A stretch of DNA of 64,000 nucleotides from Halisarca cf. caerulea (lineage: Eukaryota > Porifera > Demospongiae > Chondrillida > Halisarcidae), in the NCBI GenBank assembly GCA_963170055.1, contig CAUJGJ010000444.1:6049618-6113617 (forward strand). The letters run 5' to 3'. Made by a program: the position numbers and the translations under genes. Under the pieces are notes generated by a model. The model was not told the origin of the DNA and ran no database searches. It saw only the letters and a list, made by a program, of their open reading frames with translations. Shown one piece after another: positions 44,240 through 55,194 of the stretch (position 1 is the first letter of the stretch; each line of letters begins with the position of its first letter).

Positions 44240-45452
44240 TTGCTGCACGTTGTATATTACACGCCACATAGTGAGTTACTTTGTAGTTTAGACGTACATA
44301 GTACTCCTGCGTCGATCTTCCTCAGAACGTCGCTACAACAAATTTTGTCAAGAACCAGGTTCAAGATGCTGATGACGAATCTCCACCTAAACGACAATAG
44401 CCAGCTTCCTCGATGTGGTGACAGCCAATACGACAAGCTTTACAAGATTTGTCCACTGCTGAACACCATCATGGACAATGCACAGGTTATGTATGCCCCA
44501 CACCAACACAAGTGGCAGTGGACGAAGCCATGGTCCTCTTCAAGGATAGGTCGACCATGAAACAGTACACGCCACTAAAACCTACAAAGAGGGGATATAT
44601 GCTGTGGTGCCTGTGTGGTTCACACAATGGCCTATCGTATAAGGTCATTGTCTTCACAGGTGCAGCAACAGGGAGTGAGGAGAGTGGCGTAGGTGGTTTG
44701 GGAGCAAGGGTAGTGAGGGCTTTGGTAGAACCACTCAATGGAAAGGGCTACCACATCTATTTTAACAACTATTTCTCTAGTGTGTCACTAGCCACAGAGC
44801 AGGCCAGCAAGGGTAACTACACCATTGCCACCACCAGACCCAACTGGATGGGCTGGCCTGCTTCCTTGAAGGATATCAAGACCCTTCAGAAAGGAATGCC
44901 TTATGGGGACACCAGGTCAGGAGGTGGTAGGACAAGAAAGGCATCCCTATCCTCAACTGCATTGCCAATCCAGACGAAACCACCACTGTCCTTCGGAGGA
45001 ATAAAGATGGTACAAGGGCCACTGTAGCATGTCCACTCTGTGTGAAACTTTACAACACCTTCATGGGCAGGGTGGACTTGTTCGACGCCAAGCGCAAGAT
45101 GTACTCAGCAAGCAGGAAGTCGAAGAAGTGGTGGTTTTGTCTGTTTTACTTCTTTCTCAACACATTGGTTGACTCGTACATAATCTATGCGGAGACAGTC
45201 AACAAACGACTCACCTTGAAGGAATACGCATTGAAGGTGGCATCGTCCTTGATGTCTGCCAAAACATCCTGGAAACGCCATAGAATTACACATCAGGGTC
45301 CACCAGCAGCTACATTCTGTGAGCGACACTTTCTGGCCAAACAAGAGGAAAGACATCATTGCATGGTGTGCCACAAGGTGAAGACCGTCTTCTGCTGTTC
45401 CAACTGCAACCTGACATCCCCAATCAGCTTGTGCCCCATTCCTTGCTTCTAA
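44240..45452 (+). pseudogene. piggyBac relic PB5 (PGBD-type), catalytic Asp lost
   Basis: Frames at 44240, 44449 and 45042 together give MLMTNLHLNDNSQLPRCGDS, QVAVDEAMVLFKDRSTMKQY (first Asp), KPTKRGYMLWCLCGSHNG, IYFNNYFSSVSLA (the second Asp is Asn), FMGRVDLFDAKRKMYSASRK (third) and SKKWWFCLFYFFLNTLVDSY. The C-terminal finger is CERHFLAKQEERHHCMVCH followed by VFCCSNCNLT. It belongs with PB2 rather than with PB1/PB3/PB4. Frameshifts lie near 44500 and 45025; the N-terminal region is unrecognised. Confidence 0.85.
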
Positions 45453-45858
45453 GTATATCATACCAAGAACTAAGTAGGTACTAACTAAGGCTCTACAGGA
45501 CAATTCAAGAAGATAACCTAGAACAAACCAGTGCACATGTACAAGGAGGCCATCTTCTATTTCCGTAAAGTTACAGTAAACTACCGTATAGCAGGAAAAT
45601 TTCACGAGGTTAAATATTCGCGTTTTTCGCGTTTGCGGTAAATCCGCGAAAGTTTATTCGCGAATCTACCACCTGGGCTTTCATTGGCCATTGTTTGGAT
45701 CTCCGATAGGATGTCATTGTAAATTATTTCTCTCGTAAGCGTAAGTCTCTCCCCGACCCCAACGGGCCCTTGTCAAGCACAGTGAAGCCGCAAGCCATAG
45801 AAAGTGCCAACAAGAAGGTATCTGCTCTTCTAGATAGCTCGAGCTCGAATGGGGACAG

Positions 45859-47100
45859 CACAGGGGCATTATAGCATATTTTAGAATGTGGGGATTTTAG
45901 GTGACAAAGTATTGGAATGTAGGGAATTTGTCACCTTTTTCATACACGTCATGACTACCTCTTAGGAAAACGTCACATTTGTCATCACAAGTTGCACAAT
46001 CTCTGTCTGTAGCGGGAAATGTTTACATATTGCAGGAGCTACAATTTGAACATTTGCGCCGCCAAATCCGTCATTTTAAAGCTTTTAAAAGACGGATACG
46101 GTGATTAAAAGTATCAAATATCACATATGGACAATTTGCATACACAAAAGTTGCAATCAAGAACCATTCGCGCAAAGGTATTCACACAAAATCCCCGAAA
46201 TTGGTATCTAAAGCCTAGGTATTTCACTAAAGTACCCAAACAATATCACAATAATACGATAATATCAAGAATTACCCTATTAATATTGATGGCGAGAGGA
46301 TTTTACAATAAAATAATACGAAGATCAGTTAAAATGACTGTAACTCACCCATAATCGTTCGCAAAATAAGATCGATTGATCACAATCTAAGATTTAGTGT
46401 CCAATTTCCTTCGCTGAGAAAAACTAAACAAAACGACGAAACAAACTTTGATATCGAAACTATAACAGTAACACAGCAAATTTTCATGCGCGCGACCATT
46501 TTGGAATGATACGTAACGTCATCAATGATGTCACATTTAAATGGCGGCTTCGACCTTGTTTCAAAAAGAATGTAGAATCCGCACGTCTAGATGGCCCTTC
46601 TTTGCGACGGAGACTGCAAAAACTATTTCAAAGTACCCTTGTGCATTTGTTTATTCTGAGCGGAGGAAATATAACCAGGTACGCAAAAGATATAAGCATT
46701 TTTATGGTTTAATTTTCACTATTTTACAGCGGAAAAGTACATTTTTGGTTATATCTATGTCATTTGGGGTTATATATTTTCCGCTCAGGAATACCTAATG
46801 CAGTCGACTTTACTCTTTCATTTGATACTAGTTTTGTTCCTATTGAACTACTTCTAGACGTGCGGACATCAACATTTACTGCAAAAACAATATTTTCTTT
46901 AGATTCTCATTTACTTATTTTCGCATTCAATATGGGCTTGTTTTTTCGTTTTATGTTTCGACAATAAGCATTAATATGTGTAGAAGATTTAAAATGGGCC
47001 AGAAATTATTTCTGCGAGCCAAAATCGTCATGTATTTGTCACCCCTTTTTGGCGGTAGCCATTTTTTTAGTATTCTGAAATCCACTATAATGAGCCTGTG
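45859..47100 (+). mobile_element. CACAG-family MITE E2
   Basis: CACAGGGGCATTATAG to CTATAATGAGCCTGTG, 1242 bp, with AG on both sides (45857-45858, 47101-47102). Contains a facing pair TGAGCGGAGGAAATATAACC and GGGTTATATATTTTCCGCTCA-type sequence near 46650-46790. No ORF of known type. Confidence 0.9.
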
Positions 47101-47124
47101 AGCTTCGGGTCTTCGCGCGGCCTG

Positions 47125-48441
47125 CACAGGGGCATTATAGCGCTTTTTGGAAGTTGGGGATTATAGGCGACAAAGTTATGGAATTTGTGGAATTTGTCAC
47201 ATTTTACCTCTACGTCATTACCAACAGAAGGTAAACGTTGTAATACGTCATCAGAAGCGGGCGCTAACGGTGGTTTAGCGATAGCAGAATCTTTCGAATC
47301 TTATCGACTTTGACAAGGCAAAAAGCCGTTTTGTGCCTTAATAAGTTTTGTTTAGGTATTTGTAGAAGCACATCAATGTTTAGTAGCAATGTTCAAGCTA
47401 CACAGTCAAAAAGGGCCAGGTACCGCCGATATCGGACCTTCCCACCTCGAATGGGCGTTGCAGAAGGCCGAATCAATGTAAGAAAGTGCTGTGACAGGTA
47501 ACTGCACTATACTATCCAGGATATCCTAGATCACGAATGAAACACTAGCTAAAATCGGCTAAATGTTAGCATGCTCAGTCTACTTTCTGACTTTGTACTA
47601 ATCGATTGATTTCGCACGCAAGCTAGTGCCACTGTCTCTGCGTCTTAGTCGTCAAGTATGCCACTTTCGCCGCAGATATGACTATCAATGACAAGAATAT
47701 ATGCATAAGAACTCACTGATACTTGTTGGAACCATTAAATGAAAAATAGAACTTTCCGCACAACAAATTGCCGACCAGATCGATTGTTCACGTAGTCGAG
47801 AACATTGTAGGGCGCTTATTTCCGATGAACCTTACGAATTAAATGCCCAATACTGATGACGCGCACCTTACGTCATTCTAAAATGGCGGATTGGAACCGT
47901 CCTGCAAATATATCGTGTTTTGGGGACGTGTACCCGGGACTTTTTCTGAATAACAAAAGAACCCAACGATTTAAAATACTTTTGTATACTTGTTTTCGCT
48001 GAGCGGGGATTATATAAGCAGGTTAGCCTAAGATATTACCATTTTAATTGTCATTTTTAGCCATTTTTACCCGCTAAAAGTACATTTTTCGTTATAACTA
48101 TTTCAGTTGGAGTTATATGTTCTCCGCTCAGCATCCATATCTTAAATGAACTTTACTCTTTCATCTCATACCAGTTTCATCTCTTTGGGAGGCCGTCTAC
48201 ACGTCCCCAAATTGACATTTAGAGAAAAAGTGTACCTTTTTCAAAATCATCTTTATACTTCTGCGTATGACACATGGGCCTGTTTTGTAGTTTATTGTTT
48301 TGATAAATAACATTAAAACACTAAACAGTTGTAAAAATCGACGTACATTGTTGTTTGAGCTGTAAAATTCAATGTATATATTACCATTTTGAGCGGCGGC
48401 CATTTTCTTCCCCAGTCGAAAAGCGCTATAATGAGCCTGTG
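47125..48441 (+). mobile_element. CACAG-family MITE E3
   Basis: Same ends as E2, 1317 bp, with TG on both sides (47123-47124, 48442-48443). It lies only 24 bp from E2 and those 24 bp are transposase codons. Confidence 0.9.
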
Positions 48442-49261
48442 TGTACATGAGGTTCTCACCAGAACAGAAGATTCAGGTTGCCAGGTATGCCGTGGAGTCA
48501 GGAAATAAGCGGAAAATTATTAGGTACTCGAAACTGTGGGGTGTTGATCTGAAGGAAAGTACCGTCAGAACGTGGAAGGCTGAGTACGGGGAAGAATTGC
48601 GTAAGAGGAAGGGAATTGATCCTACGACAATAAAAGAGCTTCCAAGTCGTAAGCAAGATCGCCCACTACTCCTTGGAGAAGAGTTAGATACTGATGTGAA
48701 AGCTTATGTGGAGAACTTGAGGCAGCTAGGCGGTGTTGTGAATACTTCCATCGTTTTGGGTGGTGCAGAGGGCATCATAGCAAGCAAGGACAGGACCCTG
48801 GTGGACACATTAGCTCCTGGAAAAGACTGGGCAAAGTCTCTTTTATTTAGAATGGGGTATGTAAAGAGGAAGGCCACCACGAAGGCGAAAGTGACTGTGC
48901 AAGATTTTGCGGCCGTTAAAACCCTCTTTTTAAATGATGTGTTTACCACAGTGGCAATGGAGGATATTCCTGAAGATTTAATAATCAACTGGGACCACAC
49001 CGCTCTCCATTATGTGCCAGTATCTTTGTGGACCATGCAAAAAAAAGGCAGTATGCATGTGCCCATTGCAGGTATTGATGATAATCGTCAAGTAACTGTC
49101 GTACTGGCGTGCTCAATGAGTGGTGAATTTCTACCACCTCAGGTGATATATCAAGGCAAATCCTCGCGTTGTTTGCCTTCCTACAAGCTTCCTCCAGATT
49201 GGGATGTTACATACACACCAAATCACTGGGCGAACGAAGAGACATCACTGCAATATTTTAA

Positions 49262-52200
49262 CCCTCCTACCCTCATTTGTGCCAGAACTGGCCACTTTCC
49301 AGGAATTTTTTTTAGACAATCGAACGCGTACATCGCCATGTATGTAGTACCATTCAATAGCACTGTTACTCAGCTTTTAGATGAGGGGTAAGACCCTGTC
49401 ATTGCTCCTAGAATAATCTAGTTCAGGCCTCCAGAAGCAAACACGCTTTTTGTGGACAAATACCGTATATCATACCGTAATCCGGGACATATTCCGTAAA
49501 ATTTCCACACCTTCGCAAATCATGGCTGCAAGACAACCCACTCTGACTACAGAATCAGTTCTTCAGCTTCTCTTAGATGAAAATTCCGAGAACGAAAGTG
49601 ACGACGATAGCTTTTCCGAGTATCGTAGGTTTGTTGGGAGGATACTAACCGACTCTGAGGATGAAATCGACGATGAAGAGCACGAGCGAAGCAAAGAAAA
49701 CCGTGAAATTTCAACCGAAGGTGAGAATATTGTCGAAGAAGAACCAGAGGAACAGTCTGGCGACCTAAGTCCCCCTATGTCACATTCAACGAACGTTGTA
49801 CAAGATTATTAATACCTCAGTAACTGGAAACAAGACAGGCCCTAGTGAAGATTCAGGTCAGGAAAACGCAACTTGCATAGTTCCTGACGTGCAACACATA
49901 AGCTCCCCCAGCGCTGGTCACACCGCTTTGGACCCCTTTCAGAGTTCAGACAGTGACAGCTCTTCTCCAGAGCAGCTATCTTTTCTGGAACTATCAGTAA
50001 ACCAAGGAAGGAGTAGCCCTGTCACTAAAGAGAGCCATGATACTTCTGATCATGACAGTATAGACCCTGATGACAGTATTGTGGATGACTTTCTTGATGA
50101 TGAATCCGAGGCTGAATCTGATTTGTGGATTTCCAATGATGAATCGGACATACCAAGTGCCTTTCCAGTAACAAGCAGGAACAGACGACGTCAACGTGGT
50201 TCAAGGCGTGGAAGACCATCACAGAGAAGGAATCGAGGAACCGTACATGCAAATGTAAGACAATTTACTCGTTCACGAACCGGTCGGGGAGGCAGAACCC
50301 AAGCTGGACAGTATGTGAGCTTTATTCCTAATGGTGCACGCAAGATTGACCTGGAAGATGCTGGTTTCCAACAACCAGGGGATTTTCAACCATTGCGACA
50401 GCCTGGACCCCAAATCCAACTATCTGGCAAGTCCCCTTTGGAGATTTTCTGTCTTTTTTCAACCAGGACGTACTGCAGCACCTAGTGGATTCTACAAAAG
50501 CTTATGCTGAAGCAAAGAAGTTGCAAAAGCCAGCCATGTACAAGCGGTTTACATTGTATGAGTTTACAAAGGAAGAGATGCTGCGATACATAGGTGTGTT
50601 GATGTTGCTTAGTGTCAACTCTGTCAGGAGCTACAGGCAAGCCTGGAATCCAAGGAGCTCTCAGGTTAATGAATAGTTGTATAATACTATGTGATTTAGT
50701 TGTGTTGTATATAACTATTCATGTGTGATGAATACATAATAATATTATATTTCATGAACAGCAATTATATGTAGGCTTTTGTGTATGTCATGCTATCTTC
50801 ATCATGCATAATGGTTATTTTACATTTTTACTTATGACTTGTATTTGTTCCCTTGCAGGTACTTGTGCGTGTGATGGACCTGATGAGCAGAAATCGTTTT
50901 GAGGCAATCAGGAGCTTTTTCCATGTGGCCTTACCAGAAGAAGAGGAAGATGACGATCCCCTAAAGAAGATTCGGACTGTGTACGAGAAGATTAGGTCAA
51001 AGTGTGCAGAACTATACCAGCCGCTGCAGGAGCTATCAGTGGATGAGCGTCCAAGGCCAGGACTGCTTTCCGTCAATACATCCGCAATAAACCAGCAAAA
51101 TGGGGGTTCAAGTTTTGGGTGATTGCTGATCCATCTGGATATACACTAGATTTTCATCTCTATTGTGGAAAGCAGCGTACCATCCCTCTATCTGCAAATG
51201 GGCTTGCTTATGACGTTGTGATGGAGCTCATCAAGCCCTTTGCCAACCAAGGCTACCTTGTATTTTTCGACAATTTCTACACCAGTCCCAAACTAGTGAA
51301 TGATCTTGAAAAAATTGGAATTGGTGCAACGGGTACACTACGAATAAATCGATCTGGAGTATCAGACGCCGTGAAGAAGTTGGTAGAAGCCCTTAGAAAG
51401 AGAGATGTACCAAGAAGAACAGGATACTATATCAGAGAACAAGGATCAAAGAACGTCTACTGCTGCTGGCGAGACAATGACTGTGTCACTGTACTGTCGA
51501 GTGCCTATCCAGGCCATTCAGAATCAACCACCAAGCGGCGTGGAAAGGATCAGTCTGGACAGTATGCCACCCTTGAGGTTCCTCTCCCATCACCCATCGA
51601 CCATTATAATCGTTTTATGGGCGGGGTGGACCTGTCAGACCAGCTCATACGATACCATCCCATATTACGTCAAGCCAAGCGATACTGGAAGACTCTTCTT
51701 TATCACCTCATAGAAATTGCAGCCACCAATGCCTTCATCCTGCACAAATGGCAATGTGTTCAGGAAGGCAAGAAGCCTACAACTGAGTCAAGCTTTCGTG
51801 ATACCCTGGTACTGGCTATCATAGAAACCCATGGCACTGGGTATGTGCTTGCTCTGGACAATGTTTTTGCTGTTCGCCATTGCAGCATGGCTGTTAAGCA
51901 TGCAAACAGGAGGAGATGTGTTGTTTGCCATCGACGTTCCAGCAGGCAGTGCTCAGACTGTCCTTTCAGTCCATCACTGTGCCAAATGTTCAACCGGGAC
52001 TGTCATGGGAAGTGGCACAGTCAGAACTTTGCAGTACAACGATCGAGGTACTTTGCCTCGCAAAAGAGAAAAGCTGATGGGGTGTTGCCCTGTATTCCAT
52101 CCAAGAGGCAAGTGGGAAGACCTGTAGGAGCAAGAAAGAGGCTTAGGAAGAGGATCTATTCATAATTTCTACTGTTCTAACTTCCTTTCTGTTGTTTTGA

Positions 52201-52592
52201 TATTGTAAAGTTGTTTGCAATTGCCTATATATTTGTAACCACGATTTTTGGCCTTTTGTGTTTGATTCTAACTGGCATCTCATACCTCATTCGAAAGAGC
52301 GTTTCCTGAGCTTTCTAATGATGGGTCTATCATAGCCATACGCTTTTGCACAATTCGGAAAAAATTGCGCAATATCAGGGACTGATTTGAACGATCGTTT
52401 TTAGGCATATAATTGCTTATTACGCTCTTGTTGCTATTGGCAACGTCTTTTGAGCCCAATAATAAGATTCTATGTTATATTTCGATCAAAATGATACCAA
52501 ACATGTGCCAGATGTCTAATTGTAGCATGAAAAAACTTAGCAAGAATGTTATTTTGTAGAAACCACAGTTTAGTATGGTGAGGGTAGGAGGG
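49262..52592 (+). mobile_element. piggyBac element PB4 nested in the pogo-like ORF
   Basis: The left TTAA (49258-49261) is followed by CCCTCCTACCCTCATTTG; the right end is GGTGAGGGTAGGAGGG, followed by CTAA (52593-52596), a TTAA with one change. The 3331-bp element has the same ends as PB3. It splits the pogo-like transposase between its first and second catalytic Asp. Confidence 0.93.
49522..52165 (+). pseudogene. PB4 piggyBac transposase, frameshifted
   Basis: ATG 49522 (MAARQPTLTTESVLQLLL) opens an acidic N-terminus; a frame change near 49800 leads to a second acidic block and RRRQRGSRRGRPSQRRNR. A missing T in the T6 run near 50455 separates it from the core (VDSTKAYAEAKKLQ). Intron 50665-50858 sits at the same codon as in PB3. 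Core: ELSVDER with a short deletion right after it (near 51048), YLVFFDNFYTSP and FMGGVDLSDQL. Tail CVVCHRRSSRQCSDC and LCQMFNRDCHGKWHS, then KRQVGRPVGARKRLRKR. From 51119 to 52165 the frame is open and well preserved. Confidence 0.9.
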
Positions 52593-53144
52593 CTAAAGAA
52601 GATTATACTTCCCTTCATTGAACTGAAGCAAATGGAGTTAGGCCTGAGTGCCAGCCACCCTGCTTTGGTTTTGTTCGACCATTTCAGGGGGCAAAATACA
52701 GAAAGGTGCTTCAAATTCTTGGAAGACCATCACATTCACCATGTTCTTATTCCAAAGAACTGTACCGATCAATTGCAGCCTTTGGATGTTGCTGTGAACA
52801 AGCCTGTGAAGGATTTTATGAAGGCCAAGTTTCAGAAATGGTATGCTGAACAGGTTGCAAGCCAACTCAACGACAATAAAGGTACACAATCTGTTGACAT
52901 GCGGATGAGCATCATGAAACCTATTGGTGCCCAATGGCTTTTGTCAATGTTTGATCACTTCAAGCAATGCCCAGACATTATTCGGAATGGTTTCAACAGG
53001 AGTGGAATAACTGATTGTCTCTCAGGACAATATTAGTCTTGGTTAACTTATTAATGTCTGACTGTCACTGACAGTTATTTATTATTATGTTGGATTGTGT
53101 TTATTAATAACATGAATTTAAGAATGATTGCTCACAACTATCAG

Positions 53145-54215
53145 TCAATGGCACAATGTTTTCAATACAGGATTTCCTGGCAATATGTCGTCATGTGATG
53201 TGGGAAACAGTGTCATTTCCTTGGAGTCCAGGCACTTGAATAAATGTGACCTCATTTGTCCTTGGTCAAATCTGACTTTGGTCACATCAACACCCATTGC
53301 AAGGGCTGTTAGCACAGCAGCTGTAAACACCCCACAGTCAGTGCAACCTTTCTGCTTTCCCATGCTCATGAGGTTGATGATGACAGGTGGTCGATGAAAC
53401 TCTATCAATCCTGAGATGACTGCCAAGGTATCAGCATCCTGATCATCGTAAAGGGAGTCATACACATTTACCTCACCAGAGCGACAGTCCATTGTTGACA
53501 GGGCAATCCAGTGGTTTCCGCGGACAAATAAAGCTTGCAATCCATTAGAAGGTAACTTATGTCGGCTAGCCACTAGGGTAGAACACATACCCTTCAAATT
53601 AGGATGCTGAGCTTGCAGCAATCTTTGCACAGCATTTACATGATTATCAGATAGTCGTCGACCTCCTGTCAGAATACACTTATCATCCTCTGTGAGCTGA
53701 ATATCCCTTATCTTCACCCATTGCTGCTGTTCCATCTCATGACTACACTCAATTGAGTCACAGTGTGTTTCAACCTCGGCTTCAACTTCCCATTCCTGGG
53801 AACTGCATTCCTTTTCAGGTGAGGTTTGTTTTGGTTGGAGCTGCATGTTTTTAGTAGCCAAAATCTCTTTGACTTTAGCCAGCAAGTTGGGATGACCAGA
53901 AAAAGTCAGAGTGCAAGGCAGTTCCAGTCCTCCCTGTGGCAAATCCACTGAGGGCGTTCGAGAACCACTGATTGTGCAGCTAATTGCGCCACTACGCTCT
54001 AAAAACAGCGCACACAATCTAGAAATCTTTCGTGGAACGTGTCCAACAGTTTCATCACCTTTCTTCGTGGCTACAGCATAACGATCTGCAGGATTATCGC
54101 TCTCCCTTGCACACTCGAGTTTCTCCCCTATTTCAGCACTCCATAGATCCATATACACATGGTAGCCACGCACGCAGCTTTCAACGGTAAATGTTGCAAC
54201 TGAACTCGCAGCCAT
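53145..54215 (-). CDS. HIRAN plus Ulp1/C48-type cysteine protease
   Basis: The 356-residue frame is intact from ATG 54215 (MAASSVATFTVESCVRGYHV) to the stop at 53145. The longer ORF upstream (to 54356) holds a probable 5'UTR intron (CAG/GTGAGT at about 54357 to TTTTGCAG at about 54290), so I chose the inner ATG. Residues 10-105 look like a HIRAN domain: LECARESDNPADRYAVA and DETVGHVPRKISRLCALFL. Residues 225-340 look like a Ulp1/C48 protease: FVRGNHWIAL (His235), VYDSLY (Asp253), GKQKGCTDCGVFTAAVL (Gln288, Cys294). HIRAN domains bind DNA ends in HLTF; C48 enzymes cleave ubiquitin-like modifiers. Its place inside a pogo-like element, next to the right TIR, suggests a transposon accessory gene. 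Domain calls are from motif patterns only. Confidence 0.82.
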   Translation of the reverse strand: MAASSVATFTVESCVRGYHVYMDLWSAEIGEKLECARESDNPADRYAVATKKGDETVGHVPRKISRLCALFLERSGAISCTISGSRTPSVDLPQGGLELPCTLTFSGHPNLLAKVKEILATKNMQLQPKQTSPEKECSSQEWEVEAEVETHCDSIECSHEMEQQQWVKIRDIQLTEDDKCILTGGRRLSDNHVNAVQRLLQAQHPNLKGMCSTLVASRHKLPSNGLQALFVRGNHWIALSTMDCRSGEVNVYDSLYDDQDADTLAVISGLIEFHRPPVIINLMSMGKQKGCTDCGVFTAAVLTALAMGVDVTKVRFDQGQMRSHLFKCLDSKEMTLFPTSHDDILPGNPVLKTLCH

Positions 54216-54445
54216 GACGACAAAAAAACTTCGTAACACTCCAAAAAACAGCAACAACAACCCAAAACCAAATACCGCCTTTTTCCACCTGCAAAATCGC
54301 GAAATAATATAACCGAATCGTGAAATACCGCACACTCGAATCGCAAATGATTCCACTCACCTGAATCGCGAAATTAATACCACAAAATGCTTGTTTGAGC
54401 ACGCAATCACGAAGTTTTCTTCCGCGAAATTTTCCCGCTATACGG

Positions 54446-55194
54446 TAATAGTATGATTGTGATAGACTGTGTTTCTGTAGCTTGTTGTTGTCTTTGTAAT
54501 ACCTTCGATAGTCAATGTATTTGTATAAAACTTTGTAGAACAGGTTAATACACATAGTAGCACTACTGTAGAAAATTTGAGCAAAAGGACTATGTATACT
54601 AACTATATATACCTATGTCTACCTGTATGTTAGCAGTGTGCACCCATGTCTACCTGTATATTAACGTTGTATACCCAAGTCTACCTGTATGTTAACCCTT
54701 AATTGTTCCAATTCCTGTTCCGAAAATTTGTGTAAACGTTCACACGCCATGCAGGTGAGTTATGTGCACATAAAGTGAAATTTCAAAATGGCCGCCACAA
54801 AGTTGGTCACAAATACACCCCCTTTTCTTCTTTTGGAGTAGATAATGTGAAGAAACAAAGATAAAAGTAAGCTATCTGAACACTTTGAACCCCTATTTTT
54901 TCACTTTGTTTACTTCGAACTAACGTATTGAAGGAGAAAATTGGGACTTTTTGATGTATATGATTTTAACCTCATTCCAAAACGTGGAGTACTCAACGAT
55001 TGTGTGGGGGCAAGTTATCTACAGCAAAGATTTCTTTGGAACAGTAGCTAACCTTTCACCGTAGGGCCTCGAGAAATTCAACTTCATTCCTGAGATGTGC
55101 AGGTTTTGTGTAATTTTTGGAGAAATATTACACAAAAACGGGAAGGCTTTTAGGCTTATAGGCAAAACTGCCTGCCTAAAAAGTAGGTGTACAA
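54446..55194. other. No gene seen
   Basis: Spacer with short imperfect repeats (TATGTCTACCTGTATGTTA, three times at 54610-54695) and a TTAACCCTTAATTGTTCC stretch at 54693 that could be a lone piggyBac-like end; no partner end was found. Confidence 0.5.

Follow-up and report, generated by a model that had tools for sequence, protein, structure and literature searches.

To our knowledge, descriptions of cut-and-paste pogo elements generally give them a transposase and no other gene. The locus described here raises the question of whether an element of this type can own a second gene, and what the product of such a gene might do.

The element and its empty sites

The window is a 64,000-nt stretch of the 194-Mb assembly (C412:6049618-6113617). 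It contains a pogo-type element with terminal inverted repeats (TIRs) at 45582-45606 and 54423-54447, 25 bp long including the TA, in which a HIRAN-C48 gene is convergent with the pogo transposase (Table 1). When the flanks of the element are joined, the resulting sequence has two matches of 92% over query bases 1-262, at C369:7931672-7931932 and C369:9465565-9465825, and a third at C40:1946182-1946432 (query bases 3-255, 73%). In both C369 empty sites the junction reads as a single TA and the whole unit is absent, in agreement with the TA target-site duplication of the pogo superfamily.

Table 1. Parts of the pogo-type element, in window coordinates
Feature	Position	Strand	Evidence
Left TA target-site duplication	45582..45583	.	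TA beside TIR; empty sites
Left terminal inverted repeat, CCGTATAGC...	45584..45606	+	Similar motif at other copies' ends
Approximate 5' fragment of pogo transposase gene, truncated by nested insert 1	45710..45858	+	By-eye comparison with N-terminus of related copy L002
Nested insert 1, ~1.24 kb, begins CACAGGGGCATTATAGC	45859..47101	.	Without listed ORF of at least 90 aa
Nested insert 2, ~1.32 kb, diverged relative of insert 1	47125..48441	.	
Pogo transposase, middle part, first catalytic Asp in NWDHT	48441..49256	+	
Nested piggyBac-like element, TTAA/CTAA-flanked TIRs, splits pogo transposase	~49258..52596	.	
Transposase piece of piggyBac-like element	51119-52165	+	DDE_Tnp_1_7, 122.4 bits
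Pogo transposase, C-terminal part, second and third catalytic Asp	52590..53036	+	DDE_1, 32.7 bits, cut-off 22
HIRAN-C48 gene, 356 codons, intact	53145..54215	-	
HIRAN domain, residues 2-129	53829..54212	-	
C48 / Ulp1-SENP-fold protease domain, residues 157-335; H235, D253, Q288, C294	53211..53747	-	
Right terminal inverted repeat	54423..54445	-	Paired with left TIR
Right TA target-site duplication	54446..54447	.	Empty sites

The window copy spans 8.9 kb, compared with an expected ~3 kb, because two ~1.3-kb inserts and the piggyBac-like element lie inside it. Inserts 1 and 2 are related to each other and both have CACAGGGGCATTATAGC ends. Since its transposase is split by these three nested insertions, the copy is dead as an autonomous element, an inactivation that is absent from the earlier sequence-only reading of this DNA. 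Judged by its ends, empty sites and genes, the window element is what is left of a cut-and-paste pogo-type transposon that had two genes and targeted TA. The second gene of this dead copy is still open.

Pogo TIRs are given as 40 bp or less in most families and the catalytic spacing as DD29-56D (PMC7386202). In 15 other paired copies the TIRs measure 22-44 bp (43-44 bp in four of them). The third Asp is located 29 residues (NCTD, 24/31) or 35 residues (QPLD, 30/31) past the second. The Asp triad is accompanied by a DDE_1 match above the Pfam cut-off in the C-terminal window fragment, and precomputed PF03184 is present on 120/120 class-A transposase homologues among the matches listed. As DNA-binding domain the window fragment gives HTH_Tnp_1 only, at 18.8 bits and under the cut-off; HTH_Tnp_Tc5 is above the cut-off in L051, L054 and L056 and not in L057, and PF03221 is found on 2/120 class-A homologues among the matches listed. 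The 17 other two-ended copies are ~2.7-3.8 kb long, within the 1.2-5.2 kb of pogo elements. TA duplication, short TIRs, a length of ~3 kb and a ~480-aa DDE_1 transposase whose catalytic triad consists of Asp are shared with the pogo/Tigger superfamily of IS630-Tc1-mariner as portrayed in the available passages of PMC7386202, where, in contrast, the one or two ORFs are described as encoding transposases.

Recurrence of the gene pair

The HIRAN-C48 protein has 128 matches in the genome. These were clustered with the HIRAN Pfam matches, sorted into classes by thresholds on the matched range, and compared with the listed transposase matches. After one of the 41 HIRAN+C48 clusters (C175:4282733-4286044) was left out because it merges two genes ~2.4 kb apart, 40 remained. 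A convergent pogo transposase lies within 3.5 kb of 37 and within 5 kb of 38 of these; the other two lack a transposase among the matches listed. Six loci filed as HIRAN-only (L021, L023, L025, L026, L029 and L030) contain the C48 part according to tblastn of their DNA, often in another frame, and with these included the linkage becomes 39/46 within 3.5 kb and 42/46 within 5 kb. Among the best 30 loci with 1.5-kb flanks, 25 contain the transposase.

Twenty copies (L002-L019, L027 and L028), all from loci where the transposase had already been seen, were extended for TIRs. Together with the window copy, 18/21 have a TIR pair around both genes, a figure that describes TIRs and not linkage; E002, E003 and E015 have lost one element end or carry it in changed form. 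In 5/21 copies neither ORF is interrupted. The HIRAN-C48 genes of E014 and E017 differ at a single position in 1014 bases and their flanks differ, which indicates recent movement. The TIR motif, with at most three mismatches, occurs 343+337 times in the genome compared with 0+0 for the reversed control. Many of these occurrences, among the matches listed, are paired ~300 or ~490 bp apart and look like non-autonomous derivatives.

The sequence-only reading, in which a pogo-type element carries a HIRAN and Ulp1-type protease gene as its second gene, is borne out by the TIRs with TA, the empty sites and this recurrence. It was to fall if most HIRAN/protease homologues lay outside any TIR pair or if its TIR match did not recur with the transposase; with a convergent transposase within 3.5 kb at 37/40 loci, it was not refuted.

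The association is a property of particular lineages. Of the matches of this lineage's transposase, 64/94 have a HIRAN or C48 cluster no more than 5 kb away and 30/94 do not. For DDE_1 the corresponding numbers, among the matches listed, are 26/150 and 124/150, so that HIRAN marks certain lineages and not pogo/Tigger elements generally.

Matches to the C48 part alone were considered as members of the same family and rejected: a convergent pogo transposase accompanies 2/27 of these clusters. Four other such clusters were inspected (L072-L075), with Pfam run on L073-L075. PHD exceeds its cut-off in L074 and L075 but not in L073, where it scores lower, and integrase-type pieces occur in L074 and L075, in both under the cut-off only. 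The C48 Pfam match is under the cut-off in L073 and unreported in L074 and L075, for which the C48 part comes from the genome match of the HIRAN-C48 protein.

The HIRAN-C48 protein

The N-terminal part of the window protein matches Pfam PF08797 and adopts a HIRAN fold in the prediction. In the cavity region Asn, Asp and His are conserved and the Tyr93 position is not. A profile search for both domains, suggested along with the sequence-only reading, thus recovers HIRAN, but the protease part scores 18.1 bits against PF02902, under the cut-off of 20.7. Precomputed PF02902 is present on 18/120 HIRAN-C48 homologues (by-eye count on the best 120 of 237). The catalytic His, Asp, Gln and Cys are in place within a SENP fold, as the earlier reading had recognized from the residue signature of an intact minus-strand gene, and they are nearly fixed among the HIRAN-C48 copies. 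The protease part fits SENP1 and NEDP1 equally well.

Relatives of the protein (best 120 of 237) include P0093 of the sponge Halichondria panicea, which alone among them carries a species name. P0001 alone gave no match against PDB sequences, NCBIfam gave none on the P0001, P0093 and L057 proteins, and a search of viral contigs and prokaryote genome contigs confirmed no relatives of the profile.

From fold and residues, the C48 domain would be a SUMO-removing type of protease, and the HIRAN module probably binds 3' DNA ends. HLTF, a known protein with a HIRAN domain (4xzg, 4xzf; PMC4666394, in part), has SNF2 and RING as well, whereas the sponge HIRAN stands alone or is fused to the protease.

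Divergence within the lineage

Across 13 distinct copies the transposases are 37-69% identical and the HIRAN-C48 proteins 32-54%, and the two sets of distances correlate (r=0.63, p=0.0001). On adding five HIRAN-only elements of the second pogo lineage (B, see below) the correlation becomes r=0.14, p=0.09. The two trees agree, with support, on clades such as E007+E013 and the E010/E011/E027 group. They disagree with support in one place, E005+E012 against E004+E005, which hints at exchange. Close copies have dN 0.013 and dS 0.030-0.043, on a small sample of 18-21 differences per pair.

HIRAN genes beside other transposases

Stand-alone HIRAN genes of ~130 aa adjoin three other transposase types in the same genome, namely a second pogo lineage, a Tigger-like one and a weakly IS630-like one. 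This had not been noticed in the sequence-only reading. The distribution suggests that binding of ends is what HIRAN basically does in these elements and that the protease was added later.

Lineage B is a distant pogo lineage with a transposase 20-27% identical to that of the first lineage (A). At 5/5 loci (L051-L055), picked for a listed transposase beside HIRAN, a convergent HIRAN-only gene of 121-136 aa lies inside TACCGTA-type TIRs. In group D (L065-L067) HIRAN is divergent from a Tigger-type transposase at three loci. At L065, DDE_1, HTH_Tnp_Tc5 and CENP-B_N are all above their cut-offs, and L066 and L067 match the L065 transposase. CAGTGGAA-type ends stand beside TA at L065 and L066, and none were found at L067. 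Group E consists of near-identical ~3.4-kb copies with ends TA-CAGTGCAAGACACCTAAA, in which HIRAN is paired with the weakly IS630-like transposase; three copies were compared, one of them broken by masked bases. The DDE_3, HTH_33 and NCBIfam IS630 matches of this transposase are all under their cut-offs, and for the L068 protein NCBIfam returns an IS630 match only (32.5 bits, cut-off 100). In total there are 72 HIRAN-only clusters. Thirty-nine are without a transposase among the matches listed, which is an upper bound: three of the four inspected (L068-L071) do have an adjacent one.

Elements with no HIRAN match also exist. In group C, L056, L057 and L060 each measure ~1.84 kb between clean TIRs, and L058 and L059 have neither HIRAN nor a clean TIR pair. 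L056-L058 form one clade beside E019 in the tree. The L060 transposase is broken. Pogo elements in general can therefore do without the pair, as those that lack both genes show.

HIRAN identity between A and B is 31-50%, and its median of 0.40 is not far from the 0.46 found within A; transposase identity falls from 0.47 within A to 0.23 between A and B. From these comparisons HIRAN looks to have passed from one lineage to another, to have been taken up several times from one source, or to be more constrained than the transposase. In the HIRAN tree the A/B split is without support (33/0), and the B row L054 falls among the A rows.

A possible role at transposon ends

Cut-and-paste transposition exposes 3' ends. 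The HLTF HIRAN domain binds 3'-OH single strands, and in isolation it is described as dominant-negative, blocking removal of Cas9 from cut DNA and inhibiting resection (PMC11237066, in part). Ulp1 has been suggested to take part in repair when Ginger transposons move (PMC2836005, in part). Sequence or prediction supplies the ends, the TA duplication, the recurrence of the pair, the within-lineage co-divergence, the catalytic residues and the folds. As to function, we lean modestly towards an accessory protein that aids transposition. Its HIRAN module would bind the 3'-OH ends that the transposase cut leaves on the excised element or in the donor DNA, in competition with factors of the host that process ends, HLTF among them. 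The transposon could in this way shield its own cleaved complex, much as isolated HLTF HIRAN acts on cut DNA. At these ends the fused protease would clear repair or chromatin proteins of SUMO-like modifiers, so that the transposition complex may hold together or resealing and re-integration may become more likely. The recognition of DNA ends and stripping of modifiers that the sequence-only reading had proposed would fit the predicted fold and residues.

A wider reading, which we hold tentatively and would place somewhat below probable, is that in this genome HIRAN proteins recur as transposon-encoded end guards, small binders of 3' DNA ends acquired by several TA-targeting lineages of the IS630-Tc1-mariner group. 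They would protect cleaved transposon or donor ends against host remodelers such as HLTF, and one lineage would have upgraded its guard to an end-tethered deSUMOylase. It would cover two pogo lineages, one Tigger-type and one weakly IS630-like.

The main rival is anti-silencing, in which the protease deSUMOylates host silencing factors so that the element is transcribed, and HIRAN does no more than bring the enzyme to chromatin or DNA. Silencing of chromatin is reported to be promoted by SUMO (PMC8131101, in part), fungal transposon-borne TET/JBP genes are proposed to aid escape from silencing (PMC12730594, in part), and the protease residues are strongly conserved, as this explanation would have it. 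We nonetheless regard it as rather unlikely, as HIRAN occurs without the protease at three other transposase types, so that deSUMOylation cannot be the function common to all of them, and an end-binding module would be an odd route to chromatin.

A host gene captured once and carried along with no part in transposition would agree with the transposase-only relatives with clean TIRs in this genome (L056, L057 and L060). Such a passenger would, however, hardly be kept over deep divergence with nearly fixed catalytic residues, or show dN below dS between close copies (on just 18-21 differences per pair), and HIRAN genes adjoin other transposase types too; we consider it quite improbable. Chance enclosure of a foreign gene by the TIR pair, or its nested insertion, has a precedent in the three insertions of the window copy, but is refuted by the recurrence of the same gene pair, orientation and ends in other copies, and the whole unit is missing from the empty sites, which leaves it practically no probability.

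Relation to known elements

Among the open-access PMC papers listed, none had a title or abstract about pogo elements with a HIRAN gene; one of them, PMC13237565 on fungal genomes, combines HIRAN and transposase. The pogo surveys PMC7325037 and PMC7386202 gave no match for a protease or an accessory gene, and PMC7386202 gave none for a second ORF; in PMC7325037 a second ORF is mentioned for ciliate Tec elements only. The Tec/TBE elements are Tc1/mariner-like with several ORFs, so that extra genes are not new as such in this broad group, but the extra gene that is named for Tec codes for a site-specific recombinase and the same passages do not mention HIRAN or a protease (PMC7325037). The fungal TET/JBP genes are likewise a single accessory gene family spread across many DNA transposon lineages, although the enzyme and the host kingdom differ (PMC12730594, in part).

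A conserved second gene whose product can probably bind 3' ends and remove SUMO-like tags would show how an element may manage its own break. The genome offers a natural comparison set, with elements that have just the transposase, others that add HIRAN and others that add HIRAN-protease, and makes directly testable the older suggestion that transposon-borne Ulp1 acts in repair during transposition (PMC2836005, in part). Mutator-like elements, named in the same source, also bear an Ulp1 protease, but with a transposase of a different superfamily and, in the part available, with HIRAN unmentioned. Ginger1, with Ulp1 and PHD domains, is likewise a DNA transposon bearing C48/Ulp1; its protease lies within the integrase-type transposase, whereas the sponge pogo element has its protease joined to HIRAN and encoded apart from the transposase, in a convergent gene (PMC2836005, in part). 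The C48-only matches L073-L075 show PHD-like ends, as Ginger1 has PHD.

TIR-motif copies and elements related to the HIRAN-C48 pogo lineage

A motif search with the terminal inverted repeat (TIR) motif of the HIRAN-C48 pogo lineage yields 680 copies in the genome. Among the matches listed, many are paired at a spacing of ∼490 or ∼300 bp, and these pairs are apparently non-autonomous derivatives. Two HIRAN-C48 genes (L029 and L071) lie at loci in which no match to the pogo transposase was found in the fetched flanks; that of L029, which is contained within a 426-amino-acid open frame, may represent a solo or domesticated copy. The ∼1.84 kb pogo elements L056, L057 and L060, which have clean TIRs and no accessory gene, are related to the HIRAN-C48 lineage and provide a natural control for it. 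Left of the pogo element in the window, ORFs resemble by eye a decayed piggyBac-type transposase.

HIRAN genes and C48-like matches at other loci

The accessory gene of a second, distant pogo lineage (L051–L055) is HIRAN-only (121–136 amino acids) and convergent with the transposase, both being enclosed by TACCGTA-type TIRs. A HIRAN-only gene is divergent from a Tigger-type transposase in L065, L066 and L067, and TA adjoins the CAGTGGAA-type ends of the first two. In a set of near-identical ∼3.4 kb copies (L068 with L076/L077, L078 and L079), the transposase is weakly IS630-like and is paired with a HIRAN gene; these copies have the TIR CAGTGCAAGACACCTAAA adjoining TA.

Coordinates of loci and features
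Feature	Position
TIR-motif pair (example)	C1:3590213-3590723
HIRAN-C48 gene, L029	C295:298743
HIRAN-C48 gene, L071	C369:2144094
Second pogo lineage with HIRAN-only gene (example)	L051:513-3241
piggyBac-like ORFs	window 44240-45452

The ORFs with C48-like matches in L073–L075 carry C-terminal PHD fingers (below the cut-off in L073), a layout similar to the Ulp1-PHD arrangement of Ginger1, and two of them contain weak integrase-type pieces.
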